A stretch of 34,467 nt of DNA, taken from positions 1 through 34,467 of the IMG/VR virus record IMGVR_UViG_3300042514_002044; one strand, written 5' to 3'. This document shows positions 193 through 31,902 of this stretch, one piece after another. How positions within the stretch are numbered: the stretch's first letter is position 1; the number at the start of each line of letters is the position of its first letter. The notes beneath the pieces were generated by a model. That model made no database searches. It had not been told where the DNA came from and saw nothing but the letters and a program-made list of their open reading frames with translations. The DNA comes from a virus. Position numbers and translations under genes: made by a program.

Positions 193-202
193 TGTAAATT
201 AT

Positions 203-736: not shown

Positions 737-738
737 AT

Positions 739-1524: not shown

Positions 1525-1942
1525 TTTGTAATTGTTTTTCTATTTCTTCACGAAGAATCGTAGTTGCTAATTCTACTGCATCTATGGAAGTTCCATTAGT
1601 TTTGGCATCTTCGTAAATTTGTTCAGAAGTCTTAGATAGATCAGATTCTTTTACAAAAGTGCCATTAATCATTTGACCTTTTCTCTTAGCAATTACTGCA
1701 TAAGATCCATTAATACAATCTTCGATATTATAACCTTTTAGTTTTGCTAAATTAGTAAGTACTACCGTACAATCACCAATTGCATCTTGGAATTCTGCTT
1801 CGTCTTTAGTTAATAAAGATTTTGCTAATTCTCCTACTTCTTCTATTAGTTTTGCATATTGAGTTAAAGGATCGCCTTTCTCATATATGCCTTTATTGGC
1901 AGCCCAGTCTCGAATTGATTGAAATTCTGTTGTTAATTGCAT
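1517..1942 (-). CDS. MazG-like nucleotide pyrophosphohydrolase
   Basis: The 141-residue protein is a compact all-alpha NTP pyrophosphatase of the MazG/dUTPase superfamily. The sequence shows the typical first metal-binding helix (KLIEEVGELAKSLL, residues about 31-44; Glu 34, 35 and 38 are the likely Mg ligands) and the second (DAIGDCTVVLTNLAKLKG, about 53-70). These enzymes hydrolyse (d)NTPs to monophosphates, and phage versions are proposed to adjust nucleotide pools or (p)ppGpp-linked stress. It is followed, with an 8-base overlap, by the membrane protein gene. The C-terminal 40 residues are charged and helical beyond the core. Substrate specificity cannot be read from the sequence. Confidence 0.85.
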   Translation of the reverse strand: MQLTTEFQSIRDWAANKGIYEKGDPLTQYAKLIEEVGELAKSLLTKDEAEFQDAIGDCTVVLTNLAKLKGYNIEDCINGSYAVIAKRKGQMINGTFVKESDLSKTSEQIYEDAKTNGTSIDAVELATTILREEIEKQLQNE

Positions 1943-1953
1943 AATGTTATTGT

Positions 1954-2292
1954 TTATATATTTTCGTTAATATTGAAGTACTTAACTACATAATTAGTTC
2001 TAGCAGCTTCTTCATGAGCTTCATTCATTAAACGAAGAGAACCTAAATAGATGTTCTTTAATTTAAACCTAACTCGGTTATCGATAACTTTATAGCTTTC
2101 AACTTCAAATACTCCAAGTACTTCGTTTGCCTTTACTGGAAATAAGTACTTAATTGTTGACGCTGCTTCTTCGGTCATAACCCAATCTCCGGCAGCAACT
2201 CTCTTTAAATCATATAAAGGATATTTGCCATTGATTTTTGTAATTGATAACGTAACGTTTACGAATGCTGAATTGTGTGTTGTTGTTTCCAT
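1954..2292 (-). CDS. Hypothetical small phage protein
   Basis: This 112-residue protein is of unknown function. It has no membrane segment or recognised motif. Alternating hydrophobic strands (FVNVTLSITKI near residues 10-20, VLGVFEVESYKVI near 58-70, RVRFKLKNIYL near 73-83) suggest a small beta-barrel or OB-like fold, followed by an amphipathic helix (RLMNEAHEEAARTNYVV). A phage promoter-like ATATAATAAT element lies 17 bases upstream of its ATG, so it probably heads the unit that continues into the MazG-like gene, which begins 11 bases after it ends. Confidence 0.7.
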   Translation of the reverse strand: METTTHNSAFVNVTLSITKINGKYPLYDLKRVAAGDWVMTEEAASTIKYLFPVKANEVLGVFEVESYKVIDNRVRFKLKNIYLGSLRLMNEAHEEAARTNYVVKYFNINENI

Positions 2293-2305
2293 TTTTTTAT
2301 ATGTT

Positions 2306-2318
2306 TATTATTATATCA
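2306..2318 (-). promoter_or_regulatory. Phage promoter-like element ATATAATAATA
   Basis: On the minus strand the sequence is TGATATAATAATAAACA, 17 bases before the ATG at 2292. It matches the CATATAATAAT element found before at least seven other genes in the window. It resembles a -10 box and is related to, but not identical with, the T4 late box TATAAATA. The promoter role is inferred from recurrence and position. Confidence 0.6.
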
Positions 2319-2363
2319 TAAAGTAACATAAAGTTCTACAAAAAGAAAACTCTAGAACTGAAA

Positions 2364-2374
2364 GTTATTAACAA
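2364..2374 (-). repeat. Short repeat TTGTTAATAAC directly after a stop codon (copy 1 of 4)
   Basis: TTGTTAATAAC abuts the TAA stop of the gene ending at 2375. The core GTTA-A-TAAC is an odd palindrome, and its other strand (TTATTAACA) is one base from the DnaA-box consensus TTATNCACA. Identical copies are at 16543, 17346 and 31404. Confidence 0.55.
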
Positions 2375-2659
2375 TTAGCTATTAATCTGTACAATTCTTT
2401 CAGATGATTCTATTTTTGAAAAATCACCAGTTTGTAAATCTACAATTAGTTCAGTAACTAATTGTTTGATGTCCATATGATCGAAGTTTTGTAGACGATT
2501 CCATGAGAGTTCATGCCTGGATTCAATTCCATTAACATATAACTTATAAGTCTCAGTCATTTGTCCATCCTCGGTCACGAGTTTAACATCTTGACCAAAT
2601 TCTTGTTTGATACGCTGAGCCACTAGGTCAACGTATCTTTCTTGTGTTTCTTTACTCAT
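2375..2659 (-). CDS. Hypothetical small phage protein
   Basis: The 94-residue product starts MSKETQERYVDLVAQRIKQ, with an amphipathic helix, then a short strand-rich segment (KLVTEDGQMTETYKLYVNGI) and another helical region (MDIKQLVTELIVDLQ). It is acidic overall and has no membrane segment. I recognise no family. Its ATG overlaps the TAA stop of the UDP-glucose dehydrogenase-like gene (TAATG), so the two are translationally coupled. Downstream there is no clear terminator, only a TTGTTAATAAC repeat touching the stop codon and then the promoter of the next gene. Confidence 0.7.
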   Translation of the reverse strand: MSKETQERYVDLVAQRIKQEFGQDVKLVTEDGQMTETYKLYVNGIESRHELSWNRLQNFDHMDIKQLVTELIVDLQTGDFSKIESSERIVQINS

Positions 2660-3525
2660 TATTCTGCGCTTATTGCTCTACCTACTTGTTTAGTCCAATC
2701 TAAGTCGGTTCTCACTTCAGTATTTTTGTTAATAGTTGCGGTTAACATAGTAGTATCTACATTTAAACCTTTTGCTAAGAATTGCAAAGCTGCAATATCT
2801 TTAGGAAAACAATGTCCTCCAAATCCAAAATCTCCATCAGGTCCTGGTACTGACCAGTGTGAATTACCTAATCGGTCATCATATCTAGCATATTCAATTA
2901 CTTTGTCGTAATCAATACCTAGTCCTTGACATAATTGATAAATTTCGTTTGCATATGAAACTTTCATTGCTAAGAATGTGTTAGTTACATACTTAATAGT
3001 TTCTGCAATAGTAGAAGAAGTTTTAATGATAGGCACTTTAGGAAATGCCTTTGCAAAAATAGCTTTTACTCGTGTACTTCCAGGTCTTTCACCACCTACA
3101 ATAATTCGATTTTGATTTTTATAATCTTCGTTTGCATTTGCCTCAGTTAAGAATTCCGGATTGAAAACAATATCTAAATCTTGATAGATCGAATTTAACG
3201 TATTAGTAGATCCTGGTGGAATTGTAGATTTGATAACTACAATATAGCCATGTTTATTAAGAGCTTTTACACATTCAGAAATTTCATTTAAAGCCGAAGC
3301 TAAAATTCCTAAATCACACTCACCTGATTTTTTCATAGGAGTTGGTACGCATAAAAATGTTAATTCTGTGTTTTCTACAACTTCAAAAATACTTCTTACT
3401 GTACTGTCTTTTTTAGGGTCTTTATCGAATGCAACTATATCATAATAGTTTTTCATTCCTTCTCGAACTGCCGAGCCTACAAAACCCTGTCCTATCACTC
3501 CGATAGTTTCTTTTCGGTTTTTCAT
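2659..3525 (-). CDS. UDP-glucose/GDP-mannose dehydrogenase-like enzyme, short form lacking the C-terminal domain
   Basis: This is an NAD-dependent sugar-nucleotide 6-dehydrogenase homologue. The N-terminal Rossmann motif is GVIGQGFVGSA (residues 9-19). FLCVPTPM (58-65), STIPPGST (100-107) and NPEFLTEA (122-129) are family signatures, and the catalytic cysteine motif GFGGHCFPKD contains Cys 239. Family members usually have 390-450 residues; this one has 288 and ends just after the central helical domain, so the UDP-binding C-terminal domain is absent. It may act on another sugar nucleotide, need a partner, or be altered. It belongs with the epimerase and glycosyltransferases elsewhere in the window, and lies 1 base from the thioesterase gene. 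Confidence 0.85.
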   Translation of the reverse strand: MKNRKETIGVIGQGFVGSAVREGMKNYYDIVAFDKDPKKDSTVRSIFEVVENTELTFLCVPTPMKKSGECDLGILASALNEISECVKALNKHGYIVVIKSTIPPGSTNTLNSIYQDLDIVFNPEFLTEANANEDYKNQNRIIVGGERPGSTRVKAIFAKAFPKVPIIKTSSTIAETIKYVTNTFLAMKVSYANEIYQLCQGLGIDYDKVIEYARYDDRLGNSHWSVPGPDGDFGFGGHCFPKDIAALQFLAKGLNVDTTMLTATINKNTEVRTDLDWTKQVGRAISAE

Positions 3526-3526
3526 T

Positions 3527-3937
3527 TTATTTTTTATTTAGTTCTTCAATTAATTTACTTACTTTAATTCTACTCTTTTCACCAATAGGAATTGGATTTC
3601 CTTCTTCGTCAATATGCACAAATTTTATATGAGTTTTTAGTACTAAAGTTTGCTTACTAGTGTAAATATTATGTGCTCTCGCTTCAAGATACATTGTAAT
3701 TGATGTATGTCCTAAAGCACTTGGATGACCGTATATTTTTAGTAATTGGCTTTCTTTAGCTGGTTTTTCAAACACACATTTGTCGATTGATACGGTAACC
3801 ATTCGAGGAGAACCACACATTTCCATGGAATAACCTACTGCTGCAGCATCAATCCATGCGAGCAATTTTCCACCGAAGAGGTTTCCATGGAATCCAAGGT
3901 CAGATTTCTTAATAGGATGTGTGTTGAGTAATTCCAT
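3527..3937 (-). CDS. Acyl-CoA thioesterase, hot-dog fold (YciA/BFIT-like)
   Basis: The 136-residue protein matches the hot-dog acyl-CoA hydrolase family, which cleaves acyl-CoA to free acid and CoA. The signature HGNLFGGKLLAWIDAAA spans residues 17-33, with the conserved Gly-Gly 22-23 and catalytic Asp 30. It is followed by the strand VTVSIDKCVFEKPA and a C-terminal KFVHIDEEGNPIPI that fits the usual family ending. Length is typical of a single-domain subunit, and such proteins usually work as hexamers or dimers. It ends next to the dehydrogenase and starts right after the VWA gene, in one operon. A thioesterase is an unusual cargo for a T4-like phage, so a role in host lipid metabolism is possible but unproven. 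Confidence 0.85.
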   Translation of the reverse strand: MELLNTHPIKKSDLGFHGNLFGGKLLAWIDAAAVGYSMEMCGSPRMVTVSIDKCVFEKPAKESQLLKIYGHPSALGHTSITMYLEARAHNIYTSKQTLVLKTHIKFVHIDEEGNPIPIGEKSRIKVSKLIEELNKK

Positions 3938-4591
3938 TTATGATTTTACGTCTTCTCTATCTTCTTCGGTGAAACTTAATGCAGCATCTAGCTCTACTTT
4001 TGAAGCATTAACATTCATTTTAGCTAATCTAAAATTAGTTAATTTGTTAGAGAAGTTCATGTACATTTTACTATTTGAGGCATCATTTGCGTTATATGTC
4101 ATAGCATTCTTAGCAGAAATACCCATATCACCACCAGCTTTAATTGCATCTTGATTTGCTGCTAAGAACAAGAAATTCCAACCTGCTTTCTTTTTAGCTT
4201 CAATAGACTTGAAAACTCCATCTCTATTAAATTCTCTACTTGCATTTTCCATACCATCAGTAATGATTACCATAACGACGTCATTCTTAGTTTTAACTTC
4301 TGCAATAGTTCTACCAATAGCATCATACAATGCAGTCATTGCTCTAGGAACAAAAGTTTCACCTAAAATTAAGTCTTTTACATGTTTGATGTCTAGATTA
4401 GAATAATCTACTTGATATTGGTTGTCAAATTGTACTAATGTAAGATTTGCTTCACCTTCTGCGGCTCTTTGTTCTTTAATAAATGAATTGAATCCATCTA
4501 CGGTAGATTGACCTATGCTATCCATAGATCCACTTCTATCTAAAACAACGATAATGTCAGTTGCTTTGATTTTTTGTTTTGTTTTTGTCAT
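3938..4591 (-). CDS. Von Willebrand factor A (VWA) domain protein
   Basis: This 217-residue protein is essentially a single VWA domain. The metal-ion-dependent adhesion site is complete: Asp-x-Ser-x-Ser in VVLDRSGSM (Asp 18, Ser 20, Ser 22), a Thr in MTALYDAIG (near residue 99), and Asp in VIITDGMENAS (near 125). Such domains mediate metal-dependent protein binding, and in TerY/tellurite-type proteins and phage homologues they act in the cytoplasm. No signal peptide is present. It lies between thymidylate synthase (1-base overlap) and the thioesterase, in an operon of nucleotide and metabolic genes. The binding partner is unknown. Confidence 0.88.
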   Translation of the reverse strand: MTKTKQKIKATDIIVVLDRSGSMDSIGQSTVDGFNSFIKEQRAAEGEANLTLVQFDNQYQVDYSNLDIKHVKDLILGETFVPRAMTALYDAIGRTIAEVKTKNDVVMVIITDGMENASREFNRDGVFKSIEAKKKAGWNFLFLAANQDAIKAGGDMGISAKNAMTYNANDASNSKMYMNFSNKLTNFRLAKMNVNASKVELDAALSFTEEDREDVKS

Positions 4592-5868
4592 TAGTTATTT
4601 AGTTTAGCTTCGATTTTTTCATCTGATTCATATCCTATTAAAGAGAATTGTGATGGATCGTATTCTGAAATATCATCTCTTTCGTCAATATAATGATTGT
4701 TTTTGTCGAATTGATTAATTTTTAATTTTGGCAGTGGATGACCATATCTCTTGATTTGTTCAGCTGCAGCTGTTATATGATTATTATACAAATGAGTATC
4801 ACCTAACATTCCAATCAACTCATCTGGAATCATATTTACTTCTTTTGCAATAATTTCTAAAAGAAGTCCATAAGATGCAATATTAAATGGCAAACCTAAT
4901 AGAGTATCTACTGATCTTTGAGACCACATTAACGAAATAGCTCTTTCTGGAACTACTCGAGTCTTAGAAAGTTTCTTTTCGAACTTAGCATAGAATTCCT
5001 TTTCTTCAGCTCTTACCTTAGCAGCTTCTTCATATCGAAGAGCTTTAACAAAGGCATTTTTGATTAATAAGATTCCTCTGAGTTCTTGTTTTTCTTCAGC
5101 AGTACCTAATCGGTCAACTAACTCGAATTCACTTAATTTACGAGTATATAATTGAAATCCAATATGACAAGGAGGTAGCACAGCTTTATCAACATCTGCT
5201 ACATTCCAAGCATTAAGTAGGAGTCTTCTAGAATCTGGATTAGTTCTTAGGTCTTTAATCAAATTAGCAATTTGATCGAATGATTCAGGTTTGTAAAATA
5301 AACCTTGACGAGCATCTCTATTTTCTTCATCTAAAGCATTAGAATTAAAAAAGAAATCTTTATCAATACCTTCCCAATTTCTCCATTGCTTACCATAGAT
5401 AGATCCTAAATCACCAAACATTGAATTAAAATCGTCGTTTGCAAGAATATCTCTTTCAAATTCTTCTACGGTTAATTTAACTATTTTAGGAATTGCAACT
5501 ACTTCTGCAACTTTTTGTGCATCTTCCGTAGTAGGATTCGTATATTTTTCTTGTAGAGATTCAACCCATTTCTCATATTTCTTGTAAGCATCTCCTGTCC
5601 AAATATGACAGTTGTTTTCTAATAGATATCGAAGATCAGTTCTACCTTGTAAGAACCACATTAGCTCGGTTACCATTGTTTTGAATGCTAACTTTTTAGT
5701 AGTTATTGCAGGAAATCCATCGGCCATATCATGTCTAATCATATAGCCAAATATGCTTCGAGTTCCTACTCCAGTTCGATCACCTTTAAGATTACCATGG
5801 TGCATGATGGTTTGCAATAAGACCTTGTATTGATGGTCTAATTTGTTTGCTGAGTTTCCTATTTCCAT
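4591..5868 (-). CDS. thyA: Thymidylate synthase with two insertions, one UVR-like
   Basis: This enzyme makes dTMP from dUMP with methylenetetrahydrofolate. Core signatures are GDRTGVGT (29-36), ELMWFLQGRTD (68-78), the nucleophile Cys 234 in LPPCHIGFQLY, QRS (317-319), GLPFNIASY (325-333) and GDTHLY (356-361). Asn 329 is the residue that favours dUMP; dCMP hydroxymethylases carry Asp there. At 425 residues it is far longer than the usual 264. Extra segments lie at about 96-150 and 242-307. The second contains ALRYEEAAKVRAEEKEF (276-292), which resembles the UVR motif of UvrB/UvrC/McsA. Both insertions look charged and helical. It precedes the VWA gene with a 1-base overlap and follows a 69-residue gene. 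Confidence 0.93.
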   Translation of the reverse strand: MEIGNSANKLDHQYKVLLQTIMHHGNLKGDRTGVGTRSIFGYMIRHDMADGFPAITTKKLAFKTMVTELMWFLQGRTDLRYLLENNCHIWTGDAYKKYEKWVESLQEKYTNPTTEDAQKVAEVVAIPKIVKLTVEEFERDILANDDFNSMFGDLGSIYGKQWRNWEGIDKDFFFNSNALDEENRDARQGLFYKPESFDQIANLIKDLRTNPDSRRLLLNAWNVADVDKAVLPPCHIGFQLYTRKLSEFELVDRLGTAEEKQELRGILLIKNAFVKALRYEEAAKVRAEEKEFYAKFEKKLSKTRVVPERAISLMWSQRSVDTLLGLPFNIASYGLLLEIIAKEVNMIPDELIGMLGDTHLYNNHITAAAEQIKRYGHPLPKLKINQFDKNNHYIDERDDISEYDPSQFSLIGYESDEKIEAKLNN

Positions 5869-5870
5869 TT

Positions 5871-6080
5871 TTATATAAATTGCATTTGTACAGTTTTTAA
5901 TTCGGTTCCTTCAGGAAATACAGAATCTCCTAAATACATTTGTATGTTTTCTATTTCTGCAGTAGGAGCAAATACCATTGGCAGACTTCCTGTCATCCAA
6001 ATAACTTCATCGGTTATTGGTGACAGGTCAAAATGTATAAATTGTTGTTGTGTTTCGTTCCACAAAGTTTTAAATATCAT
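5871..6080 (-). CDS. Hypothetical small phage protein
   Basis: The 69-residue product (MIFKTLWNETQQQFIHFDLS at the start) is of unknown function. It has no membrane segment, is mildly acidic, and looks strand-rich (AEIENIQMYLGDSVFPEGTE, then LKTVQMQFI at the end). It is packed between the epimerase gene (its ATG overlaps that stop) and thymidylate synthase (2-base gap), so it is surely translated as part of the operon. Confidence 0.65.
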   Translation of the reverse strand: MIFKTLWNETQQQFIHFDLSPITDEVIWMTGSLPMVFAPTAEIENIQMYLGDSVFPEGTELKTVQMQFI

Positions 6081-6967
6081 TAGCTACAGTTTTTATTAAC
6101 ATATTCAGTTAGATAATCCATTAGGTCATGTTCTGCTCTCCAGCCTAAAGCTTTTTGAGTTTGTTTCCAATCGCATAAAGTTGATTGACCTTCATTCTTT
6201 CTTAAAGGAGTATGAATCCATCGACCACCTTCCATTGAACAAAGCTTCTTAGCAATATCAATAATTTTAATTGGATTACCTCTACCTAAATCAAAATTTA
6301 CACCTAGAGACGTGATATTTGATGCAGCAATAAGTCCTTTACAAATATCTTCAACATGAGTAAAATCTCGAGATTGTTCACCATCACCAACAACTGTAAT
6401 ATCTTCACCGTTTTTCCATTGTCTAGAAAATTTAGCAACAACAGTAGCCCATTCTCCTTCACGAGGTTCTCTAGGACCATAAACATTATAGAATGTACAC
6501 ATTGACATATTTAAGCCGAAACATTGTGCATAAGTTTTAACAATGCCTTCTCCTGCTACTTTTGAATACGTGTAAGGAGTTAAATAAGGAGTTCCGTGAT
6601 TTTTCGATGAAGTGGTTGCGTAGACTAATGATTTACAATCACTTAATCTAGCTAATTCACAAACTGCAGCAGTGCCTAAAGTATTAGATTCAAAATAATC
6701 AAATGGTCTTTCAAATGAAGGTTGTATTCGAGCTTCAGCTGCTAAATGGAATATTTTATCGAATTTCTTGTCGCCGTAATGTTTAATTACATTTTGCACA
6801 TCACCTAAGATGTATTCAGCAAATTGGTTTTGGTAATATAGAGATGCAGATTCTGACGATAGATTGTCAATACCATAAACTTCATGTCCTTGTGACACAA
6901 GCATATCTACTAAATTTGAGCCTACAAAACCCAAAGCTCCTGTCACTAAAATGATTTGATGTTTCAT
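6080..6967 (-). CDS. NAD-dependent sugar-nucleotide epimerase/dehydratase (extended SDR)
   Basis: A GalE-like extended short-chain dehydrogenase of 295 residues. The NAD-binding motif is TGALGFVGSNL (9-19), followed by the acidic ribose-binding residue in YGIDNLSSES (Asp 34) and FHLAAEARIQPS (73-84). The catalytic Tyr-x3-Lys is Tyr 132 and Lys 136 in PYTYSKVAGE, and GPREPREGEW-type and QSRDFTHVEDICKG segments are typical of UDP-sugar epimerases and decarboxylases. The substrate is probably a nucleotide sugar such as UDP-glucose, -GlcNAc or -glucuronate; the sequence does not decide which. It heads an operon, with a phage promoter element 18 bases upstream, and probably feeds the glycosyltransferases encoded at 8982-14225. 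Confidence 0.88.
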   Translation of the reverse strand: MKHQIILVTGALGFVGSNLVDMLVSQGHEVYGIDNLSSESASLYYQNQFAEYILGDVQNVIKHYGDKKFDKIFHLAAEARIQPSFERPFDYFESNTLGTAAVCELARLSDCKSLVYATTSSKNHGTPYLTPYTYSKVAGEGIVKTYAQCFGLNMSMCTFYNVYGPREPREGEWATVVAKFSRQWKNGEDITVVGDGEQSRDFTHVEDICKGLIAASNITSLGVNFDLGRGNPIKIIDIAKKLCSMEGGRWIHTPLRKNEGQSTLCDWKQTQKALGWRAEHDLMDYLTEYVNKNCS

Positions 6968-6983
6968 ACTTACTTTTTAATAA

Positions 6984-6996
6984 TTATTATATGCAA
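6984..6996 (-). promoter_or_regulatory. Phage promoter-like element TGCATATAATAAT
   Basis: TGCATATAATAATTATT on the minus strand lies 18 bases before the epimerase ATG and just after the terminator at 7024-7047. This is one of the best matches to the recurring element and also reads as an extended -10 box. It probably starts the transcript covering 6967 down to 2375. Confidence 0.65.
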
Positions 6997-7023
6997 AATC
7001 TTAAATAAGAATTCAATACAACA

Positions 7024-7047
7024 AAAGGCTAATTTTATTTAGCCTTT
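7024..7047 (-). terminator. Rho-independent terminator hairpin
   Basis: Arms 7024-7032 and 7039-7047 pair perfectly over 9 bases (AAAGGCTAA with TTAGCCTTT) around a 6-base loop, followed on the minus strand by TGTTGTATT. It ends the unit that finishes with the gene at 7059. Confidence 0.8.
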
Positions 7048-7058
7048 GTGATTGTAGA

Positions 7059-7340
7059 TTACTTAGAAAGTTGTTCAATTTCTTTATCGATTATAGATTG
7101 TCGGTTAACATCAAGAATTTTTCTATCAGTAGATTGAATCATTCGTTTTTCTGTTTTAAGTCCTTCGATTTGTAAATCCTTTTTGGTAACTGATTGGTCG
7201 ACCTTTTCGGTTAATTTATCAAGTCTTTTGTTGATGCTCTTAACATCACCAGATCCACAAGTGTTAAAGAAAATTAAAACAAGAAGAATCGTTGCAATTT
7301 TGCTAAAATGAAGATCCAAAAGTTTTGTTATTTTATTCAT
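7059..7340 (-). CDS. Small membrane-anchored or lipoprotein with coiled coil
   Basis: The 93-residue protein has one hydrophobic segment (IATILLVLIFFNTC, residues 15-28) followed by a polar, heptad-like coiled coil from about residue 35 to the end (INKRLDKLTEKVDQ, then a second helix). Cys 28 followed by GSGD could be a lipobox cysteine, although the preceding residues (FNT) are not a strong lipobox and the N-terminal part is long; a simple N-in membrane anchor is equally likely. A membrane-tethered coiled coil of this size is compatible with a spanin-like or envelope role, but no direct evidence exists. It overlaps the upstream zinc-motif gene by 1 base and is followed by a terminator. Confidence 0.7.
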   Translation of the reverse strand: MNKITKLLDLHFSKIATILLVLIFFNTCGSGDVKSINKRLDKLTEKVDQSVTKKDLQIEGLKTEKRMIQSTDRKILDVNRQSIIDKEIEQLSK

Positions 7341-7576
7341 TACATTTTCTTGTTTTTTGGTTTGATTGTAGTAGATGGTCTAGGAGTTTGCTGAGATTTC
7401 TTAGCATCATAGTAATCATCAGTATAGCATTCACATGGAAGTCTAGAAGAACCACATTTTGGACAGGATAGAGGCTCAGCCGGTGAATCCGGCTTTGGAG
7501 CTTCTATTTCTTCGATATCTTTATCTGATGGCTTTTTCTTTTCTAATATGAATTGGAAGAATTTCTTAAATGACAT
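7340..7576 (-). CDS. Small zinc-motif protein with a possible capsid-targeting N-terminus
   Basis: The 78-residue product starts MSFKKFFQFILEKKK, which resembles the T4 capsid-targeting peptide (MKTYQEFIAEA in T4 internal proteins) and contains I-L-E, a fit to the T4 gp21 cleavage consensus (Ile/Leu-x-Glu). A short metal-binding knot follows (Cys 38-x2-Cys 41 ... Cys 48-x-Cys 50), then a basic, Pro/Thr-rich tail (RPSTTIKPKNKKM). It may be a packaged internal protein, but a cytoplasmic zinc-ribbon protein is also possible. The minus strand carries GATAAATAACTT just upstream (7592-7599), one mismatch from the T4 late box. Confidence 0.65.
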   Translation of the reverse strand: MSFKKFFQFILEKKKPSDKDIEEIEAPKPDSPAEPLSCPKCGSSRLPCECYTDDYYDAKKSQQTPRPSTTIKPKNKKM

Positions 7577-7594
7577 GGTGTCGTTTTAAGTTAT

Positions 7595-8128
7595 TTATCT
7601 TCCTTGTTGAAGTGCTTGTTCTCTTTGTGCAGCTTCTACTAAATTCTCAACAGATATACCTTGCTCAGCAGCAACTAATTCAAGAGAATGGTCTCTTAAA
7701 ACTTGTCTATCGTCGTTAATTTCTTTCATTGGAAGTGCAAATTGATCGCAGATTCTTCTGAACATTTTAGCGTTTTCAACACCTTTACCTGGATAATTTT
7801 TCAAGAAGTGGAAAATAGCTTCAATGATTTCTACCTGAGTATTACCATTTAATGCTCCATCGACTACAATTCCTTGTAATTTTTCGTAAGTTTCTGAAAT
7901 TGCATAAGATTCATATCCTTTCCACTCAACTGTTTCGTAAAAATTTTCAAACAAGTATTTTGTTTCTTCAACAGTTAAAAGAACCGCGTAATTTTTAGTC
8001 TCCAGTAATTGACGGATAGCATCAAATTTTTCCTGAGCTTCAGCAACTCTTTTTGGATCGATTAGACTAGGTCCTTGTTGGTTTTGACTTGTTGCTTCTT
8101 GAACATCGTCAGCTTTAATTACTTTCAT
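7595..8128 (-). CDS. Hypothetical phage protein, helical
   Basis: This 177-residue soluble protein is of unknown function. It is predicted to be mostly alpha-helical (AEAQEKFDAIRQLLETKNYA near 29-48, QVEIIEAIFHFLKNYPGKG near 97-115) and ends in a Gln/Glu/Ala-rich helix (AAQREQALQQGR). No catalytic motif is seen. The segment ENAKMFRRICDQFALPMKEI is distinctive enough to be a family signature. It heads its own unit, with a GCATATAATAAT element 21 bases upstream, and the two small genes 7340-7576 and 7059-7340 follow within 20 bases. Confidence 0.7.
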   Translation of the reverse strand: MKVIKADDVQEATSQNQQGPSLIDPKRVAEAQEKFDAIRQLLETKNYAVLLTVEETKYLFENFYETVEWKGYESYAISETYEKLQGIVVDGALNGNTQVEIIEAIFHFLKNYPGKGVENAKMFRRICDQFALPMKEINDDRQVLRDHSLELVAAEQGISVENLVEAAQREQALQQGR

Positions 8129-8147
8129 ATTTTAGTTTTTGTTTTAA

Positions 8148-8159
8148 TTATTATATGCA
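8148..8159 (-). promoter_or_regulatory. Phage promoter-like element GCATATAATAAT
   Basis: TGCATATAATAATTAAAAC on the minus strand lies 21 bases before the ATG at 8128 and overlaps the gap right after the stop of the oxygenase gene. It is a near-perfect match to the copy at 6984. Confidence 0.65.
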
Positions 8160-8161
8160 CT

Positions 8162-8977
8162 TTATGATTTTTTGTTTCGATAAACTGATTCAAAAGTTGT
8201 AATTGATGACCTATCTTTTATTAATTTCTCAATTGAATCATTTCCTATTTGATCTTTAGTCGGAGCAAATTTAACTTTCATTCTTTCATCTGCATTTATT
8301 GCAGGAGGCATCAAATAATATGTTGCTAAGCTATTTCGAGTCAAATTTTCCGGTGAAGATATGTCATTACATATTCCGTGCCATGAGTTTTGAGTAGTAT
8401 TAAAAATTACTGCTCGATTGAATATGCAATCTACAATTTTCGAAGGCTGTGATTCTGGCATTCCAGTGTCTTTATTATGTTCCCATAAACCAAAAGATCC
8501 ACCATATTCAGATTTCCAATTAGGATTAATGTATAATATTAGATTAGCAACTCTTTGCATATGTAATTTTGGATGAATAGAATAATCTAAATGAGGATTT
8601 AATTTACCTCCAGATTTATGCGTATGAAACCCTCCTCCATGTAAACCAATATCGGCATACATATCATTTTCTCTTTTTCCAGTTACGATAAATTCTATTT
8701 TTTGAGTAAATTCCGGAGAGAGAACATGAGTAAAAAATTGATAGGTCTTTGGAGGAAATTTATTCCAATTATTAGAAGCCTTTTTTATTTCTAAAGGATT
8801 ATCATATGAATACCAAAAATCGTCATCAAAATCAGGGAATTCAGAAGATAAAGACATTGCATCTTCAATTGAAAGGAAATTATCAATTACAATATAATTA
8901 AAAGGAGTTTCCCTTCTAAAAGATTCACTCATATGAATGAGCTGTTCGTCGTTAAGATTATCTATGTAAGTTTTCAT
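8162..8977 (-). CDS. 2-oxoglutarate/Fe(II)-dependent oxygenase (prolyl 4-hydroxylase-like)
   Basis: This 271-residue protein carries the complete 2OG-Fe(II) oxygenase facial triad and cosubstrate residue: His 129 and Asp 131 in NPHLDYS, distal His 200 in NSWHGI, and Arg 214 in LTRNSLATYYLM. LILYINPNWKSEYGGSFGLW (147-166) is the typical strand-turn of the prolyl-4-hydroxylase clade. Such enzymes hydroxylate a protein side chain, sugar or small molecule with O2 and 2-oxoglutarate. It ends 4 bases from the glycosyltransferase at 8982, inside the sugar-modification block. Hydroxylation of a glycan, or of a virion protein residue as an attachment point, is a reasonable inference. The target cannot be read from sequence. 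Confidence 0.88.
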   Translation of the reverse strand: MKTYIDNLNDEQLIHMSESFRRETPFNYIVIDNFLSIEDAMSLSSEFPDFDDDFWYSYDNPLEIKKASNNWNKFPPKTYQFFTHVLSPEFTQKIEFIVTGKRENDMYADIGLHGGGFHTHKSGGKLNPHLDYSIHPKLHMQRVANLILYINPNWKSEYGGSFGLWEHNKDTGMPESQPSKIVDCIFNRAVIFNTTQNSWHGICNDISSPENLTRNSLATYYLMPPAINADERMKVKFAPTKDQIGNDSIEKLIKDRSSITTFESVYRNKKS

Positions 8978-8981
8978 ATAT

Positions 8982-9707
8982 TTAAGATAATGGACCGTAA
9001 GGTATATTCCATTTATTTTGAAATTTAACGTGTTGATCGTTAGTAGTTTTTTGCTGGTACTCTGAATCGAATTTTTTATGAGTCAATCCAAGAATTTCAT
9101 TATGATGATTTACTATTGAATCCGCAACTAGACAATGAGAAATACCATTTTTCTGTAATTCCATTCCATAATCATTATCACAATACCAATGAGTGAATGT
9201 TTCATCTAACTCTTTAATTATATCATAAATTTTTCTTTGTTGGAATATACACCATCCTGCTAATTCTCCTCTTACCCTTCTCCCTTCATATACATTTCCT
9301 GCATGCGTAATGTTATCGCCTTGGGTTTGAGGACACCAAGGAGAAGCAGAAAGAAATCTAGGATGAGCATCCATTACTTCAATAATCTTAGAAGACCAAT
9401 TTTTTTCATAAGTCAAATCAGAATTACATAGAACCACATAAGGAGAGTTTCCAACCTTTCGACCTAAATTCAGATATTTATGATAACCAAATTCTCCTAT
9501 CGGTCTTAGCGTAGTTGTAGTATGTCTTCTATCCAATTGATTATATTCATCGTAGTTAATATCAGGATTTGATTCCACTATATATGCATGAAAAGTCACA
9601 TCTGTTCCAGGCTCTGAATTAAACAAAGAATCTAATCCTTCACGAGTTACTTGAAGAAGTTCATCATCTTTTGCCCAGCTAATTATTATTACGTCTATGT
9701 GCTTCAT
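8982..9707 (-). CDS. Glycosyltransferase, family 2-like (GT-A fold)
   Basis: A 241-residue GT-A type transferase. The N-terminal strand DVIIISWAKDDEL (5-17) starts the nucleotide-sugar binding fold, YVVLCNSDLTYEKNW (90-104) carries the DxD-equivalent NSD (95-97), and WCIFQQRKIYDIIKELDE plus HWYCDNDYGMEL (about 177-188) match the acceptor/catalytic region of GT2 enzymes, with Asp-x-Asp after the Cys. It probably transfers a sugar from a nucleotide donor in the cytoplasm. It has its own promoter-like element 16 bases upstream and is followed by the oxygenase 4 bases later. Confidence 0.85.
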   Translation of the reverse strand: MKHIDVIIISWAKDDELLQVTREGLDSLFNSEPGTDVTFHAYIVESNPDINYDEYNQLDRRHTTTTLRPIGEFGYHKYLNLGRKVGNSPYVVLCNSDLTYEKNWSSKIIEVMDAHPRFLSASPWCPQTQGDNITHAGNVYEGRRVRGELAGWCIFQQRKIYDIIKELDETFTHWYCDNDYGMELQKNGISHCLVADSIVNHHNEILGLTHKKFDSEYQQKTTNDQHVKFQNKWNIPYGPLS

Positions 9708-9720
9708 TTTATTATTGTTT

Positions 9721-9732
9721 ATTATTATATGT
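9721..9732 (-). promoter_or_regulatory. Phage promoter-like element CATATAATAATA
   Basis: ACATATAATAATAAACAA on the minus strand lies 16 bases before the ATG at 9707, immediately after the stop of the gene ending at 9749. The following AAACAATAATAAAATG leader matches other starts in the window. Confidence 0.65.
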
Positions 9733-9748
9733 TGTTTTATGAATTAGA

Positions 9749-10348
9749 TTATCTTACGAGTTCAACGAAATATGAATTTTCATTAGGATGTTGAAAATGA
9801 ATTTCGCTTTCAGGTAAAAATCTTTTTAGGCATTTATAAATTCCATGCATATCAATAAATGGTCTAGGAGGATTAGCTAATAAATATTCTGCTGCTTGTA
9901 TCATATTAGGAATATGTTTTTTAGGTAACCAAAGAACTAAATCACTAACAAACTCATATTCTAACCAAGGTGCATGTGGTGGGTACATAAAATTAGTTTT
10001 GTTATAATCTATATTGCCTGTTTCAGTTACTTTTTTTAAGAAATTCAAATCAAATCGAGTAACAAAAATGAAATCTAGATCTTCATTTTCAACCATTTTT
10101 AAAGAATTTATAAAGGTGGTTATTTGATTAGATCCTTCAAATTGCAAAAGTCCTAAAGTCTTCGGTTCATATATCTCTTTTAATTCATCAATATGATCGT
10201 GATTGTATGTACAGACATAAACATTTACGTCATTTCCTGCTTCTACTAAAGGCTCATATAGATTAGTAGCTATATTATTTGAACATCTTCGAAAATCAGC
10301 TTTTCCATGTCCGAATGATATTCCTCTTATAAGTATTCCTATTTTCAT
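9749..10348 (-). CDS. Glycosyltransferase-like protein
   Basis: The 199-residue protein begins MKIGILIRGISFG and contains DFIFVTRFDLNFLKK (about 92-106), a V-x-R-x-D-type motif that also occurs in the gene at 10806 (VVIRSRFDV). Proteins of this type are found in capsule and lipopolysaccharide clusters and are thought to be GT-A-like transferases; the RxD motif would replace the DxD. It overlaps the phosphodiesterase-like gene by 4 bases (ATGA type). Its start has the leader AAAACAATAATATG, which recurs exactly at an internal ATG at 12272. The exact sugar is unknown. Confidence 0.65.
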   Translation of the reverse strand: MKIGILIRGISFGHGKADFRRCSNNIATNLYEPLVEAGNDVNVYVCTYNHDHIDELKEIYEPKTLGLLQFEGSNQITTFINSLKMVENEDLDFIFVTRFDLNFLKKVTETGNIDYNKTNFMYPPHAPWLEYEFVSDLVLWLPKKHIPNMIQAAEYLLANPPRPFIDMHGIYKCLKRFLPESEIHFQHPNENSYFVELVR

Positions 10349-10806
10349 ATTATTGTTTTGTATTTACTAACATAATCACTACAAACACCTAAACAACCTT
10401 CAATAGATTCGTCATTTATTTCTGGCATTACTGCTATGCTAGATTTTATGGGTTGCTTTCCTGGATATGCCCAAATGTAATTTAATGAAGTTAATGTGAC
10501 TGTATCTTCTTCATGCCAAAAATAATTAACAGGATAACCACACTCTTGAAAATAAACTAAAGCTTCTACATTTTTGCAATGAACCCAAAGCTTCGTTAAT
10601 CTATCTCGAAACCATCTAAAATCAATTCCGTAATCAGGTTTATCATGTCCTAAAAAAAGCTGCCAACTAAATTGTTCAGTTTTTATATACCAAACATCGA
10701 CTTCAACATCGAAACCTTCTTTTATTGCTTCATCTATGTATGTTGGTTCGTTTTCCCATGATTCAAATTTCCCATCAGTATTTCCTCGATGTGCAATATA
10801 TTTCAT
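10345..10806 (-). CDS. GDPD/PI-PLC-like phosphodiesterase domain protein
   Basis: This 153-residue protein starts YIAHRGNTDGK (3-13), followed by EN (residues 19-20) and FDVEVDVWY (32-40). HRG...EN...E-x-D is the metal and catalytic signature of glycerophosphodiester phosphodiesterases (His 6, Arg 7, Glu 19, Glu 35, Asp 37), and LGHD (52-55) supplies the second catalytic His. It is much shorter than the usual 240-residue barrel and is probably a compact TIM-barrel variant of the kind seen in surface polysaccharide clusters. It may act on a phosphodiester in a glycan or lipid. It overlaps both neighbours by 1-4 bases, in the same operon. Confidence 0.72.
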   Translation of the reverse strand: MKYIAHRGNTDGKFESWENEPTYIDEAIKEGFDVEVDVWYIKTEQFSWQLFLGHDKPDYGIDFRWFRDRLTKLWVHCKNVEALVYFQECGYPVNYFWHEEDTVTLTSLNYIWAYPGKQPIKSSIAVMPEINDESIEGCLGVCSDYVSKYKTII

Positions 10807-11465
10807 TAGTATCGTATTTCGTTTTTTAGCACATAAGCCATATTTGGATCGTTTACAAATTCTATTCCATTATAATTTAGCCAATTCCTAAATACATCTT
10901 CAGCATTAACGCAAGTAGAAATTATATTAGGTGTATAAAAAGATTCATCAGGCACACATTTTCTCATAGTAGAAGATGTACCATAAAATAAAATATCGCT
11001 AGGCATTCCATTAATAGGAGATAGTCTACCATATATTTTATTTTCTTCACATTTTAAATCATTAGGCATAATTAAATAGGTAACATCAAATCTACTTCTT
11101 ATTACTACATCATATTCATCATCGATTAATTGTATAGAATTCTTTATTTTAGTAAACATCAATAAAGTTCCTCTAACATTAACTCGAGAATCTCTAGGAA
11201 ATTGAAAATTAAAATTAGATAGATAATCGTATTTAGTACTTGAATCAATTTCTATCTTAGCTGGTCGATAATTAGACAGAAGACTATCAGAATTAATTAC
11301 ATCATCAATTTCGATATCACCTTTCCAAAAAAGTAAATTACTACCTCTATTTTTCCATGTTGAGATATAAACATCATCACAAATATCAAATAATAATTTA
11401 CTTGCTTCAGTAGGATGATTTTCATATCCTCTAGTGTGACCGGATATACATAATGCTATTTTCAT
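10806..11465 (-). CDS. Glycosyltransferase-like protein (capsule/LPS cluster type)
   Basis: I chose the ATG at 11465, giving MKIALCISGHTRGYENH; the frame is open 27 bases further upstream, but that extension overlaps other sequence and starts weakly. The 219-residue product shares its opening (CISGHTRGYE) and DVVIRSRFDVTYLI with polysaccharide-cluster glycosyltransferases and is a distant relative of the gene at 9749. It lacks membrane helices. The ATG overlaps the stop of a short orphan coding fragment (ATGA). The likely role is sugar transfer in the phage glycan pathway; donor and acceptor are unknown. Confidence 0.68.
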   Translation of the reverse strand: MKIALCISGHTRGYENHPTEASKLLFDICDDVYISTWKNRGSNLLFWKGDIEIDDVINSDSLLSNYRPAKIEIDSSTKYDYLSNFNFQFPRDSRVNVRGTLLMFTKIKNSIQLIDDEYDVVIRSRFDVTYLIMPNDLKCEENKIYGRLSPINGMPSDILFYGTSSTMRKCVPDESFYTPNIISTCVNAEDVFRNWLNYNGIEFVNDPNMAYVLKNEIRY

Positions 11466-11530
11466 AATACTTGATGTAGTTTTTCTACACATTCATCGAC
11501 TATACCTTTCCATTCAATTGAAATAAATTT
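11462..11530 (-). pseudogene. Orphan C-terminal coding fragment (possible gene remnant)
   Basis: Between the stop of the HAD-nucleotidyltransferase gene and the ATG at 11465 an open frame without a start reads KFISIEWKGIVDECVEKLHQ, then VL and TGA, with the TGA overlapping the next ATG as ATGA. The composition is protein-like and the coupled stop/start arrangement is that of a real gene end. I read this as the tail of a gene whose front was removed by deletion. The open frame continues upstream only about 9 codons, overlapping the end of the 11529 gene in another frame. Confidence 0.4.
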
Positions 11531-12893
11531 ATTTTGAATATTCGGAAAGATACGAGTTTAAATCTTCAGGAGTACCTAAACCCCACATTCCTTTTATATT
11601 GTATGTTCGAATCTCTTTGCCATCTTCTATTGCTTGATTGAAAACCGGACATACATAAAATTCATTGTTAACTCGAATATCTTTGTTAATCATTTGTTCT
11701 GCAAATTTAACATAATCTGATCCCTTCTTCCAATAATAAATACCTACTGTCGCAATATCAGATATAGGATTTTTTTCTGCAACTTCAGTAACTAATCCTT
11801 CTTCGTTTATTTTTGCAAAAGACCATTTAGGATGAGTAGAAGTAAAAGAAACAATTCCTCCGTCACAATCGGTTTCATTCATTTTATACATAAATTCATT
11901 AGAATCCCATACAACAAATTGATCTGAATTTGCCATAACTAAAGGCATATCATTATCTATAAATTCTTTAGCGAGTAAAGTAGTACATGCAGCACCTTCG
12001 GTTATTCCATCAACTTCAACTATTTTAGCATTAGGGGCAATTAAATTAAGTAAAGTATCTAAATTATATTTTTCTCTGTGAGATTTTTGTACTATGAAAA
12101 TATAATTTGCGTCAATATTAAGATTCTCAACGACTACTTGTATCATTGGCTTATTATTTACTTCAATTAAAGGTTTTGGGAATGTATATCCGGCCTTTTC
12201 GAATCTACTTCCAGCTCCAGCCATAGGTATCAAAACATTTAATTTTGAATCCTTCCATTTAGGTGTTGTCATATTATTGTTTTCTTTTATGTGTTTAATC
12301 TTTTCTTTTATATTAAGGTAAGTTACTTCAATTGGATTTTTAACCCTAAGTACATGAGACATACTTCTAGAAGCAGCTAATAATCCGTAAGGAGAATCTT
12401 CGACGATTATAGTTTCTTCGGCTAAACATCCTATGGTAGATATCGCTTTCCAATACATTTCAGGATGAGGTTTTGAATTACTTACATCTTCATTGGATAT
12501 AATCAAATCAAAAAACTCGATTATTCCTAGTTTAGAAAGTACGGTAAGTACTGTCTTTCTAATACTATTAGAACATACTACTAGCTTATAACCTTCATTA
12601 GATAACATTTGCATTGTAGTAATTAATTGAGAATCTGCTCGCAAATTTCTTAAAGCTTGTAAAGTATACATTTGTTTATCGCCCCAAACTTTGCTATGCA
12701 ATTCAACCGGAAGACCTTTATGTTTAGTCAACATATTTAATTTCTGGTTAGTTTTTAAACCATCATATATTGAAAGGTGTTCATTCCATTCTATAGCATA
12801 TTCTTCACCTAATGCTTTATTTAAAGCTTCATAGTGTATAGTTTTTGCTTCAACTAAAACTCCGTCTAAATCAAAAATTATTAACTTAATCAT
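11529..12893 (-). CDS. Fusion of HAD phosphatase and sugar nucleotidyltransferase
   Basis: The 454-residue protein joins two enzymes. Residues 1-200 are an HAD hydrolase of the beta-phosphoglucomutase type: FDLDGVLVE (7-15; nucleophile Asp 8 and Asp 10), VCSNS (106-110), SKPHPEMYWKA and VEDSPYG (164-170). Residues 208-454 are a sugar-1-phosphate nucleotidyltransferase: LIPMAGAGSRFEKAGY and FPKPLIEV near 220-245, and ANSDQFVV as the metal site. Together they could process a sugar phosphate and then activate it. Met 208 (ATG at 12272) is preceded by AAAACAATAATATG, identical to the start of the gene at 10348, so a separate nucleotidyltransferase may also be made from an internal start. Confidence 0.87.
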   Translation of the reverse strand: MIKLIIFDLDGVLVEAKTIHYEALNKALGEEYAIEWNEHLSIYDGLKTNQKLNMLTKHKGLPVELHSKVWGDKQMYTLQALRNLRADSQLITTMQMLSNEGYKLVVCSNSIRKTVLTVLSKLGIIEFFDLIISNEDVSNSKPHPEMYWKAISTIGCLAEETIIVEDSPYGLLAASRSMSHVLRVKNPIEVTYLNIKEKIKHIKENNNMTTPKWKDSKLNVLIPMAGAGSRFEKAGYTFPKPLIEVNNKPMIQVVVENLNIDANYIFIVQKSHREKYNLDTLLNLIAPNAKIVEVDGITEGAACTTLLAKEFIDNDMPLVMANSDQFVVWDSNEFMYKMNETDCDGGIVSFTSTHPKWSFAKINEEGLVTEVAEKNPISDIATVGIYYWKKGSDYVKFAEQMINKDIRVNNEFYVCPVFNQAIEDGKEIRTYNIKGMWGLGTPEDLNSYLSEYSK

Positions 12894-13686
12894 GTTTTTC
12901 TATTTTTGCTAAATAGGCAGAAGGCCAATTATAATAAGACAAACCAGCTTCTCTAGGATATTTTTGTCTAACTTCTTCTGAGTATTTGAGAGTATCGAAG
13001 AAAATATCTCCATTTTCTATTACTAATATATAATCAACTGGCTGCCAACCTGATTCTATTCGAGTTTTAGCTCTCTTTAGTGCTTGTTCTTTTGTTCGAT
13101 AAGTTATATGTTTATGACAAAAATCTACACTTATACTATTCATTGCTTGCGGAGGAATTGTTAAGCTGTGACTTTTACCATACACAAATTCTGGCTTCAT
13201 TCTAAAATATCGATGTTCAGGAAACCCAGGCATCATACAATATTCTAACATAGGTTCGATTAAACCTCCATTATTCGTATTTTCGATCCATGATTCCTTT
13301 TGTGAAGTATGTGGGAAAAAGTGAAGATTTCTAACGGTAACTGAATCAAAATCTAAGTGATCGATACTTTCTAGCATGGTCAAAGGATTACTTTCAGGAA
13401 ATTCATCTGGGTGAAGTACTGCTACCCATTTTTTTTCAGGTGATATTTCTTTTGCCTTTTCTAAAAGAAATCCTCTAATTGAATCGTTTGATACTCCATG
13501 TACAACGTTTTCATCTCTTTCGTAGTATTTTACTTCAGGAAATCTAGAACATATTTCTCTACCTAATTCATCTTCGCTACCATCGAGAACTAGAATTGGA
13601 TCGAAATATTTTGTGATTACATTCAAATATTCTTCGAGTATATCGTTTTCATCTCGCATAATTAAAAGACCTATCTGCTTTTCCAT
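12886..13686 (-). CDS. Glycosyltransferase family 2-like protein
   Basis: A 266-residue GT-A type protein. IGLLIMRDENDILEEYL (5-21) and PILVLDGSEDELG (30-42) match the first half of bacterial glycosyl transferase family 2 proteins, and VAVLHPDEFPE (88-98) holds the HxDEF variant of the metal-binding motif (His 92, Asp 94, Glu 95). PGFPEHRYFRM (near 173-183) is another family feature. It overlaps the HAD-fusion gene by 8 bases and the upstream glycosyltransferase by 1 base. A promoter-like ATATAATA element lies 11 bases before its ATG, inside the end of the upstream gene. No membrane segments are present. Confidence 0.82.
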   Translation of the reverse strand: MEKQIGLLIMRDENDILEEYLNVITKYFDPILVLDGSEDELGREICSRFPEVKYYERDENVVHGVSNDSIRGFLLEKAKEISPEKKWVAVLHPDEFPESNPLTMLESIDHLDFDSVTVRNLHFFPHTSQKESWIENTNNGGLIEPMLEYCMMPGFPEHRYFRMKPEFVYGKSHSLTIPPQAMNSISVDFCHKHITYRTKEQALKRAKTRIESGWQPVDYILVIENGDIFFDTLKYSEEVRQKYPREAGLSYYNWPSAYLAKIEKHD

Positions 13687-14225
13687 TATCTTAGTGTATT
13701 ATATGTTGAAAGAACTTTATTTATACGCAAAGGAGAAGTTTTAGAAGCACATTCATATGCAAATATACCATCAGCCGCATATATCCCTAATTCCCATCTA
13801 GTTTCTCCTATCAATGAATGAGAAACCACAAAATTATGACTGTCGGTATAATTAACTCCTATAGAATCTGCATTTAATCTTAAAGTACCATTAGGCCATT
13901 CCTGAGGAAATGTTAAAAAATCGAAATCAATATTTTTTATACTTTCGTACAAATCTTTATGTAAAATGGTATCGTCGTCATTAAAATAAACAAATCCCTT
14001 TTCGATTTTATCAATAGCAAAATTTCGTTGACCGTTGCCTGAAAAACTAGCAGGATCTTTATGTGGATATGGTTCACAATTTTCTGGAATTAAATCTGCT
14101 GATGGTAATTCTGCTGAATCGAAAACCACAATCCATCGATAATTTTCTCTAGGAATATTGATACTTTTAGCTATTGTATGTAGATTTTCTGGTCTACTAC
14201 AAGGTGTTATGATATTTAAAAACAT
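13686..14225 (-). CDS. Glycosyltransferase, GT-A fold with DDD motif
   Basis: The 179-residue protein starts NIITPCSRPENL (4-15), the classic first strand and loop of small GT-A transferases, and has FVYFNDDDTILHKDLYE (78-94) with the metal-binding Asp 83-85. GNGQRNFAIDKI (64-75) is also typical of this family, in which Arg and Asn contact the nucleotide. Near the end, SLIGETRWELGIYAADG may form the acceptor/catalytic site. It is one of at least four probable transferases in a row. The nuclease gene ends at its start, with a shared base. Confidence 0.82.
   Translation of the reverse strand: MFLNIITPCSRPENLHTIAKSINIPRENYRWIVVFDSAELPSADLIPENCEPYPHKDPASFSGNGQRNFAIDKIEKGFVYFNDDDTILHKDLYESIKNIDFDFLTFPQEWPNGTLRLNADSIGVNYTDSHNFVVSHSLIGETRWELGIYAADGIFAYECASKTSPLRINKVLSTYNTLR
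13695..13707 (-). promoter_or_regulatory. Phage promoter-like element CATATAATACA inside the upstream gene
   Basis: AACATATAATACACTAAG on the minus strand lies 11 bases before the ATG at 13686 and overlaps the last codons of the 14225 gene. It fits the recurring element over CATATAATA. Confidence 0.45.
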
Positions 14226-18671: not shown

Positions 18672-19244
18672 CTAAATTATTTCTAAAAAGGTTTTGTCAG
18701 GTACTACTGCAGATATACTCCCTTCGTCTTCTGCAATATTCGTATAATAGAATCCTGACTTTGCATTTCCGGCTTTAAGGGCTCTCATCATCATACCATT
18801 AGCTCTCATATCACTATGAGGTTTATTAGGAGTATTAGACATAGAACCTATTATTTTAACAGGAAATACTATAGGTTTACATTTCATAGAAATCTTTGTA
18901 CGATCTGAATAAGTTGCAACCTCTTCTCTTTGAGTAGGATAATAATCTTCTTCTGGTACATCACTACCTGCATTATAACCAGTTATACACCATTTGCCTT
19001 GTTTTTGTAGTGCTCTTAGCGTAGCTTTACCAGCTAATAAAGTTTTACCATATTCAGTTTTTCCTTCCCATCCTCCAATTGCCGGAACTCCTATTCTAGC
19101 TTCTAAGGCTTCTGTTGCTGCCAATTTAGTTCCAATATGAATTCCATTCTTACCTTCAAGTTTTTTGTCAGTAGATCCATGATAGTATTGAGTTACGTTA
19201 TATGATTCGTTTATGAATTGATTGTATGTAGGTAATTTTTTCAT
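18672..19244 (-). CDS. Candidate ejected internal protein, ADP-ribosyltransferase-like
   Basis: The 190-residue protein begins MKKLPTYNQFINES, closely resembling the capsid-targeting peptide of T4 internal proteins (MKTYQEFIAEA); the I-N-E fits the prohead protease consensus (Ile/Leu-x-Glu), with cleavage expected after Glu 13. The body has YYHGSTDKKLEG (20-31) and IHIGTKLAATEA (36-47), a pattern like the YHGT/HGS first motif of diphtheria-type and PARP-type ADP-ribosyltransferases. Near the end, GFYYTNIAEDEGS could hold the acidic catalytic residue. T4 Alt is an ejected transferase that modifies host polymerase, and a comparable role is inferred here. It overlaps the PhoH gene by 1 base. The family call is uncertain. 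Confidence 0.6.
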   Translation of the reverse strand: MKKLPTYNQFINESYNVTQYYHGSTDKKLEGKNGIHIGTKLAATEALEARIGVPAIGGWEGKTEYGKTLLAGKATLRALQKQGKWCITGYNAGSDVPEEDYYPTQREEVATYSDRTKISMKCKPIVFPVKIIGSMSNTPNKPHSDMRANGMMMRALKAGNAKSGFYYTNIAEDEGSISAVVPDKTFLEII

Positions 19245-31873: not shown

Positions 31874-31875
31874 TA

Positions 31876-31888
31876 TTATTATATGCAA
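31876..31888 (-). promoter_or_regulatory. Phage promoter-like element TTGCATATAATAATA
   Basis: ATTGCATATAATAATAATGA on the minus strand. The box ends 4 bases before the ATG at 31873, so a transcript from it would start at or within the codon, i.e. be leaderless unless a transcript from upstream is used. Confidence 0.55.
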
Positions 31889-31902
31889 TTAAGATAAAAA
31901 GG

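Follow-up and report, generated by a model that had tools for sequence, protein, structure and literature searches.

Glycan islands of phages are usually written off as 'LPS' (lipopolysaccharide) genes. Glycosyltransferase (GT) islands are known in pelagimyophages and cyanomyophages, and for the pelagimyophage islands remodelling of the host surface, with a block to superinfection, has been the favoured reading (PMC7029224). The DNA considered here, a 34,467-base viral record (IMG/VR IMGVR_UViG_3300042514_002044, the whole of which is called the window), holds at positions 8162-14225 a block that is like these islands in belonging to a T4-like phage, in being hypervariable in gene content between close relatives, and in combining several GTs with sugar-nucleotide enzymes. 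The islands of S-CAM9, B23, S-SM2 and Bellamy share with the window homologues of a nucleotidyltransferase and of a protein resembling glycerophosphodiester phosphodiesterases (GDPD). The block differs from those islands in having a 2-oxoglutarate (2OG) oxygenase and, in the version carried by a sister phage, a RuBisCO-like protein. Its position differs as well, since it is flanked by an exonuclease gene (14225) on one side and a small gene without known function (open reading frame, ORF, 7595) on the other, whereas the host recognition cluster (HRC), which includes tail fibres, is bounded by VrlC and gp14. Judged by its gene neighbours, the block appears not to be the HRC itself but the same kind of cassette elsewhere in the genome. 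We consider, with a probability of about 0.72, that it is a recombining cassette by which a T4-like jumbo phage makes and attaches a decorated glycan.

Cassette exchange and the conserved core

The window, in which nearly all genes lie on the minus strand, is part of a T4-like jumbo phage genome. It encodes a two-subunit topoisomerase II whose large subunit matches those of T4-like and huge phages (55% identity to the proteins of uncultured phages of 635-642 kb), and it contains a T4_baseplate match (4.4e-5, slightly below the curated cut-off) as well as tail-tube- and sheath-like ORFs recognized by eye. Megablast of window positions 1-25000 against phage records gave no match; a 294-kb contig (L109/G001) comes from nearly the same phage and is referred to as the sister phage. 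The initial annotation had described the block as a compact cluster, and each of the ORFs it named is indeed open on the minus strand, with neighbouring ORFs abutting or sharing a few bases in an operon-like manner. They encode the oxygenase (8162-8977), a HAD-nucleotidyltransferase fusion (11529-12893), a miniature GDPD-fold protein (10345-10806), and five GT-A-like transferases, here termed GTa (8982-9707), RxD1 (9749-10348), RxD2 (10806-11492), GTb (12886-13686) and GTc (13686-14225).

Comparison with the sister phage showed 94-95% DNA identity across window positions 13-8162 and 12923-34467; between these flanks only 9098-11039 aligns, at 70% DNA identity, and on the left the break falls where the oxygenase gene ends. 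The sister cassette runs GTc (94% identical), GTb (87%), a bare nucleotidyltransferase (41% identical to the window's domain), a 106-residue protein that by eye resembles a cupin, a RuBisCO-like protein and a methyltransferase, followed by RxD2 (49%), the GDPD-like gene (70%), RxD1 (56%), GTa (73%) and gene 7595 (100%), so that the HAD-nucleotidyltransferase is replaced by a nucleotidyltransferase with cupin-like and RuBisCO-like proteins. In L006, a syntenic but less close relative, the same site is occupied by a third gene set, consisting of a different GT-like ORF, a HAD-nucleotidyltransferase (82%), a DUF1796 protein, methyltransferase-like and RxD-like ORFs, the GDPD-like gene (74%) and GTa (66%). 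The oxygenase gene is missing from both. In these comparisons the site stays the same and the majority of the GTs and accessory enzymes are replaced, with a nucleotidyltransferase, the GDPD-like protein and GTa being retained. The block belongs with the recombining glycan cassettes already known from marine T4-like phages.

Two of the retained proteins form a core that recurs far beyond these relatives. In the fusion, a beta-phosphoglucomutase-like HAD domain (HAD_2, 2.4e-29) precedes the nucleotidyltransferase (NTP_transferase, 5.4e-12), and the catalytic motif residues of both are invariant across 17 homologues. The HAD half is closest to structures of mannitol-1-phosphate phosphatase and beta-phosphoglucomutase, and the other half to 4evw, a structure deposited under the name 'nucleoside-diphosphate-sugar pyrophosphorylase'. 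The GDPD-like protein (153 residues) has no Pfam match. Its AlphaFold model, built from a 56-homologue alignment (pLDDT 96.6), superposes on full GDPDs at Z ~10 over 141-145 of the 153 residues (for 1o1z, Z 10.2, 144 aligned, root mean square deviation 3.4), and Foldseek places GDPDs at the top of its list, at weak E-values (0.019 at best). The model indicates a GDPD barrel about one third smaller than usual. It has in common with the GDPD/GlpQ family the barrel fold and the HR, E-x-D and HD motifs (His6, Arg7, Glu35, Asp37 and His54 are invariant in the 56 sequences, and Asp55 is present in at least 90%). Unlike that family, it has ~140-153 rather than ~220-250 residues, is unrecognized by Pfam, is encoded with a nucleotidyltransferase, and has a probable H-x-K in place of E-x-K. 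Alignment with the Pyrococcus furiosus GDPD extends across residues 2-53; His76-x-Lys78 sits where GDPDs have E-x-K, a correspondence taken from motif order beyond the residue-level alignment.

A scan of viral contigs found relatives of the HAD-nucleotidyltransferase in at least 598 viral stretches, and the GDPD-like gene lies near it, often directly adjoining, in 63 of 84 viral loci examined. The enzyme is 58% identical in the Synechococcus phages S-CAM9 and S-8S55 and 57% in B23, with a GDPD-like gene nearby; diverged versions of both genes lie in the sugar clusters of S-SM2 and Bellamy. When bacterial genomes were scanned with the alignment of GDPD-like proteins, 23 loci emerged, mostly from SAR11/Pelagibacteraceae, and profile searches placed the same nucleotidyltransferase family within a few kb in all of them except L086, L103 and L105, the latter two being cut at a contig end. 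Three of the bacterial loci (L089, L092, L094) carry sugar-nucleotide genes together with several polytopic membrane proteins, a content that fits O-antigen-type loci. The core pair is thus common to hundreds of marine and freshwater viruses and to SAR11 surface-sugar clusters.

The third partner of this pair varies. In 12 bacterial loci the nucleotidyltransferase is fused to HAD and a RuBisCO-like protein was not seen, while in L087, L094, L095, L099 and the sister phage it is unfused with a RuBisCO-like protein nearby. With phages L109 and L110 counted in, the RuBisCO-like protein occurs in 0 of 13 fused versus 5 of 9 unfused loci (Fisher p ~0.005, calculated by hand and indicative only, as the loci are related). 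By gene content, the third partner would be either the HAD domain or the RuBisCO-like protein, never both together. The sister's RuBisCO-like protein (L109:9828-11012; PF00016, 1.9e-33) keeps the Lys and KEDE motif region. The sister was alone among 50 related viral records in matching PF00016, indicating that this variant is rare in phages, and no match to the protein was found in 50,697 phage records. Literature searches, incomplete in coverage, found neither a GDPD-nucleotidyltransferase pathway nor a RuBisCO-like protein in glycan loci; within that coverage the core, with its HAD or RuBisCO-like partner, has not previously been described, the island itself being of a known kind.

Oxygenase, transferases and donor supply

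The oxygenase is an accessory member of the cassette. As had been annotated, it is of the prolyl-4-hydroxylase-like type of Fe(II)/2OG oxygenases (PF13640, E=3e-14), with an HxD motif at residues 129-131 (His129, Asp131) and a distal His200. No DNA match to the gene was found in the sister phage, and a scan of viral contigs for close relatives gave none; its context was therefore read from three distant homologues, with some neighbours named by eye. Two of these, 41-45% identical, lie in sugar-nucleotide and GT clusters of marine viruses. In AG-345-E08 the neighbours are a short-chain dehydrogenase/reductase (SDR), an RfaE-like nucleotidyltransferase, a kinase, and HAD-like and cupin-like ORFs, and in AG-345-L05 they are GTs, SDRs, and NeuA-, DegT- and NeuB-like genes. 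A weaker homologue in a SAR11 chromosome adjoins GT4-like genes. Given these sugar-cluster contexts, a glycan rather than peptidyl-proline is the economical reading of its substrate, and the enzyme would hydroxylate the glycan or a glycan precursor. As a separate observation, the NeuA-, DegT- and NeuB-like genes of Kyanoviridae virus AG-345-L05 (L147:9616-12313), recognized by eye, suggest that this phage may make a sialic-acid-like sugar.

Three of the transferases had been annotated as clear GT-A enzymes, a description that suits the GT2-like GTb (PF13704, above the Pfam cut-off; 57% identical in L110) better than the others. GTa, also GT2-like, falls just below the cut-off for PF00535 (0.001), with support from a PHROG glycosyltransferase match (4.5e-14), and the short GTc has a weak match (PF03360, 6.5e-4). 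RxD2, initially assigned by its R-x-D motif, does have a GT-A fold in its AlphaFold2 model (pLDDT 82), with glycogenin as the best Foldseek match (4.6e-5) and a further match to phrog_13607 (6e-9); a new fold for the R-x-D transferases was dropped given this structural match. The true start of RxD2 is probably the ATG at ~11465, where its homologues start. RxD1, 25-28% identical in seven viral loci, shares the R-x-D motif and is a putative GT-A-like transferase, assigned solely through weak alignment with the RxD2 family.

Outside the exchanged block, two minus-strand genes possibly supply donors. One encodes a genuine member of the epimerase family (6080-6967; PF01370, 1.1e-45), an NAD-dependent sugar-nucleotide epimerase/dehydratase of the SDR type whose closest solved relatives are UDP-glucose 4-epimerases, and it is syntenic in both related phages. 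The other (2659-3525) had been likened to UDP-glucose dehydrogenase (UGDH). The N-terminal and central domains of this short UDP-glucose/GDP-mannose dehydrogenase-like enzyme bear this out (PF03721, 3.4e-25; PF00984, 1.5e-25), as does its GGHCFPKD motif, with the C-terminal domain unmatched; several further viral loci have such an enzyme close to the HAD-nucleotidyltransferase.

The acceptor of the glycan

A pathway that builds and transfers a decorated glycan, as initially proposed, is well supported, including by the recurrence of oxygenase homologues inside other glycan clusters. The HAD-nucleotidyltransferase and the miniature GDPD would prepare a nucleotide-activated small sugar or polyol phosphate, and soluble GT-A enzymes would add that unit and other sugars to the acceptor in the cytoplasm. 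UDP-sugars of the host would be the source of the other sugars, perhaps after alteration by the UGDH-like and SDR enzymes of the phage, and the oxygenase, to judge by its neighbours in other genomes, would hydroxylate the glycan. By swapping GTs and accessory enzymes, near-identical phages would alter the glycan, which fits recognition or superinfection pressure.

Export genes bear on where this glycan is placed. By a simple hydropathy count of transmembrane segments, polytopic ORFs (at least six predicted segments) make up 0 of 1364 ORFs within 8 kb of the HAD-nucleotidyltransferase in 85 phage loci; for 19 bacterial loci the figure is 28 of 267 ORFs. PF00953, a marker of lipid-carrier transferases, is absent from 22 viral records and present in all three SAR11 genomes searched. 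PF02397 was found in neither those phage records nor the SAR11 genomes and is uninformative as an export marker, as the SAR11 genomes lack it too. The SAR11 surface-polysaccharide loci (the L087-L101 series) share with the phages the pairing of a GDPD-like protein with a HAD-nucleotidyltransferase, or with a nucleotidyltransferase and RuBisCO-like protein, and differ from the phage records searched in having flippase/polymerase-like polytopic proteins and, in the three genomes searched, PF00953. Because lipid-carrier transferases and flippase-like proteins went undetected, a complete surface-polysaccharide pathway is seemingly not phage-borne, which leaves a virion protein or an intermediate of a host surface-glycan pathway as the acceptor. 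Assembly of the glycan probably takes place in the cytoplasm, with either a virion protein or a lipid-linked sugar of the host carrying it. Between acceptors, a virion protein receives the largest share of our confidence, short of even odds; a host surface glycan is a somewhat weaker candidate, and DNA is improbable.

If the host surface is the target, the cassette GTs would work on O-antigen or capsule precursors of the host while these are still lipid-linked, so that the receptor changes and superinfection is blocked. O-antigen GTs are often soluble; the core pair does occur in SAR11 surface-polysaccharide loci, and this is the reading favoured for related islands (PMC7029224). On the other hand, the 85 phage loci show no polytopic membrane protein near the core, and activation enzymes with several GTs exceed the needs of a one-step conversion, so that we regard host-surface remodelling as plausible at rather less than even odds. 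The differing gene sets of close relatives might also suggest unrelated host metabolic genes that merely accumulated without a joint function, and yet the same core recurs in unrelated phages and in bacteria, and the genes lie on one strand with overlapping ends and conserved catalytic residues; accumulation of this kind is very improbable. Three points do weigh against a glycan cassette as outlined above. Most of the viral records are fragments, so missing export genes are no proof; the metal-binding Glu of E-x-K is probably replaced by His76 in the GDPD-like protein, whose reaction may consequently differ from standard phosphodiester hydrolysis; and the substrate of the nucleotidyltransferase cannot be read from its sequence.

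Modification of phage DNA was raised by a comparison of the oxygenase and GTs to base-J and 5-hydroxymethylcytosine (5hmC) chemistry. That comparison is not borne out for the block, in which Pfam, PHROGs and NCBIfam scans found no known DNA glycosyltransferase or TET/JBP family, and no base hydroxymethylase was seen in the window. The transferases could nonetheless extend a hydroxymethylated base made elsewhere, as in phages with arabinosylated 5hmC, with the UGDH- and SDR-like enzymes of the window supplying a pentose or uronic-acid donor. The sister genome does encode a 241-residue, dCMP-hydroxymethylase-like protein of the thymidylate-synthase family, which has ~51% identity with proteins from T4-like phages (the annotation of some being dCMP hydroxymethylase) and, by eye, Asp where thymidylate synthases have Asn. 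Its gene is overlapped by a 448-codon ORF that resembles a GT-B transferase and has no family match, and a nucleotide kinase, an SDR and a further GT-like ORF complete a candidate base-modification operon (L129; L132:16065-18941; L133:2228-3034). However, this operon lies ~150 kb from the cassette (40 kb versus 193-199 kb) and includes a putative transferase of its own. The core also occurs in Synechococcus phages, which are outside the ten leading organism groups of hydroxymethylase matches; a PF00303 search of 22 viral records gave a divergent hydroxymethylase-sized match in three only; and the bacterial surface-polysaccharide loci contain the core where DNA is no target. T-even 5hmC glucosylation or arabinosylation and base J are similar to the block in pairing an oxygenase with GTs, and to the sister phage in its hydroxymethylase-like gene, but the block has a prolyl-hydroxylase-type oxygenase and GT-A transferases, and the hydroxymethylase-like gene is at another locus. 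The distance of the operon, and the core in phages without such a gene (as far as fragment records tell), place DNA last among the three acceptors in likelihood, and glycosylation of DNA by the cassette is unlikely.

The window's own ThyA (4591-5868; 97% identical in the sister phage) was considered as a hydroxymethylase. It matches thymidylate synthases and keeps the dUMP-type Asn (FNIASY), and so is not evidence for 5hmC; its C-terminus is unlike the usual one, and hydroxymethylation of dUMP is conceivable. At 425 residues it has extra insertions, one of which by eye resembles a UvrB/UvrC-like segment.

Phage context and meaning of the core

Other features of these genomes were recorded in passing. 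A 1942-residue protein (19995-25823) with internal repeats, ~25 predicted hydrophobic segments and no family match is perhaps of the tape-measure type, and two neighbouring, related lipoprotein-like ORFs (31415-32364) by eye resemble CAP/SCP domains. In the sister phage, 45 of 355 ORFs (L131-L145) start with a common leader such as MKNLPTYEEFLNES, a pattern found at 0.5% of internal positions, and window ORF 18672-19244 has this leader as well. The leader resembles the one that targets internal proteins of T4 to the capsid. Proteins of T4 are known to be injected (PMC12373910), and by analogy dozens of leader-bearing proteins may be packaged and injected alongside DNA in the sister jumbo phage.

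For the glycan cassette, the fact that two otherwise near-identical phages differ most in this block points to a trait under strong selection. The recurring core suggests one definite, unnamed biochemical step common to abundant ocean bacteria and aquatic phages. We tentatively suggest, at less than even odds, that the miniature GDPD, the nucleotidyltransferase and the interchangeable HAD or RuBisCO-like protein form an unrecognized route to a novel nucleotide-activated building block, one that SAR11 uses in its surface polysaccharide and that phages of aquatic habitats have captured in their hundreds. If so, a marine RuBisCO-like class would gain a role in making glycans, with one of its members encoded by a phage, and if the RuBisCO-like protein truly replaces the HAD domain, an orphan RuBisCO-like class would be tied to cell-surface chemistry.

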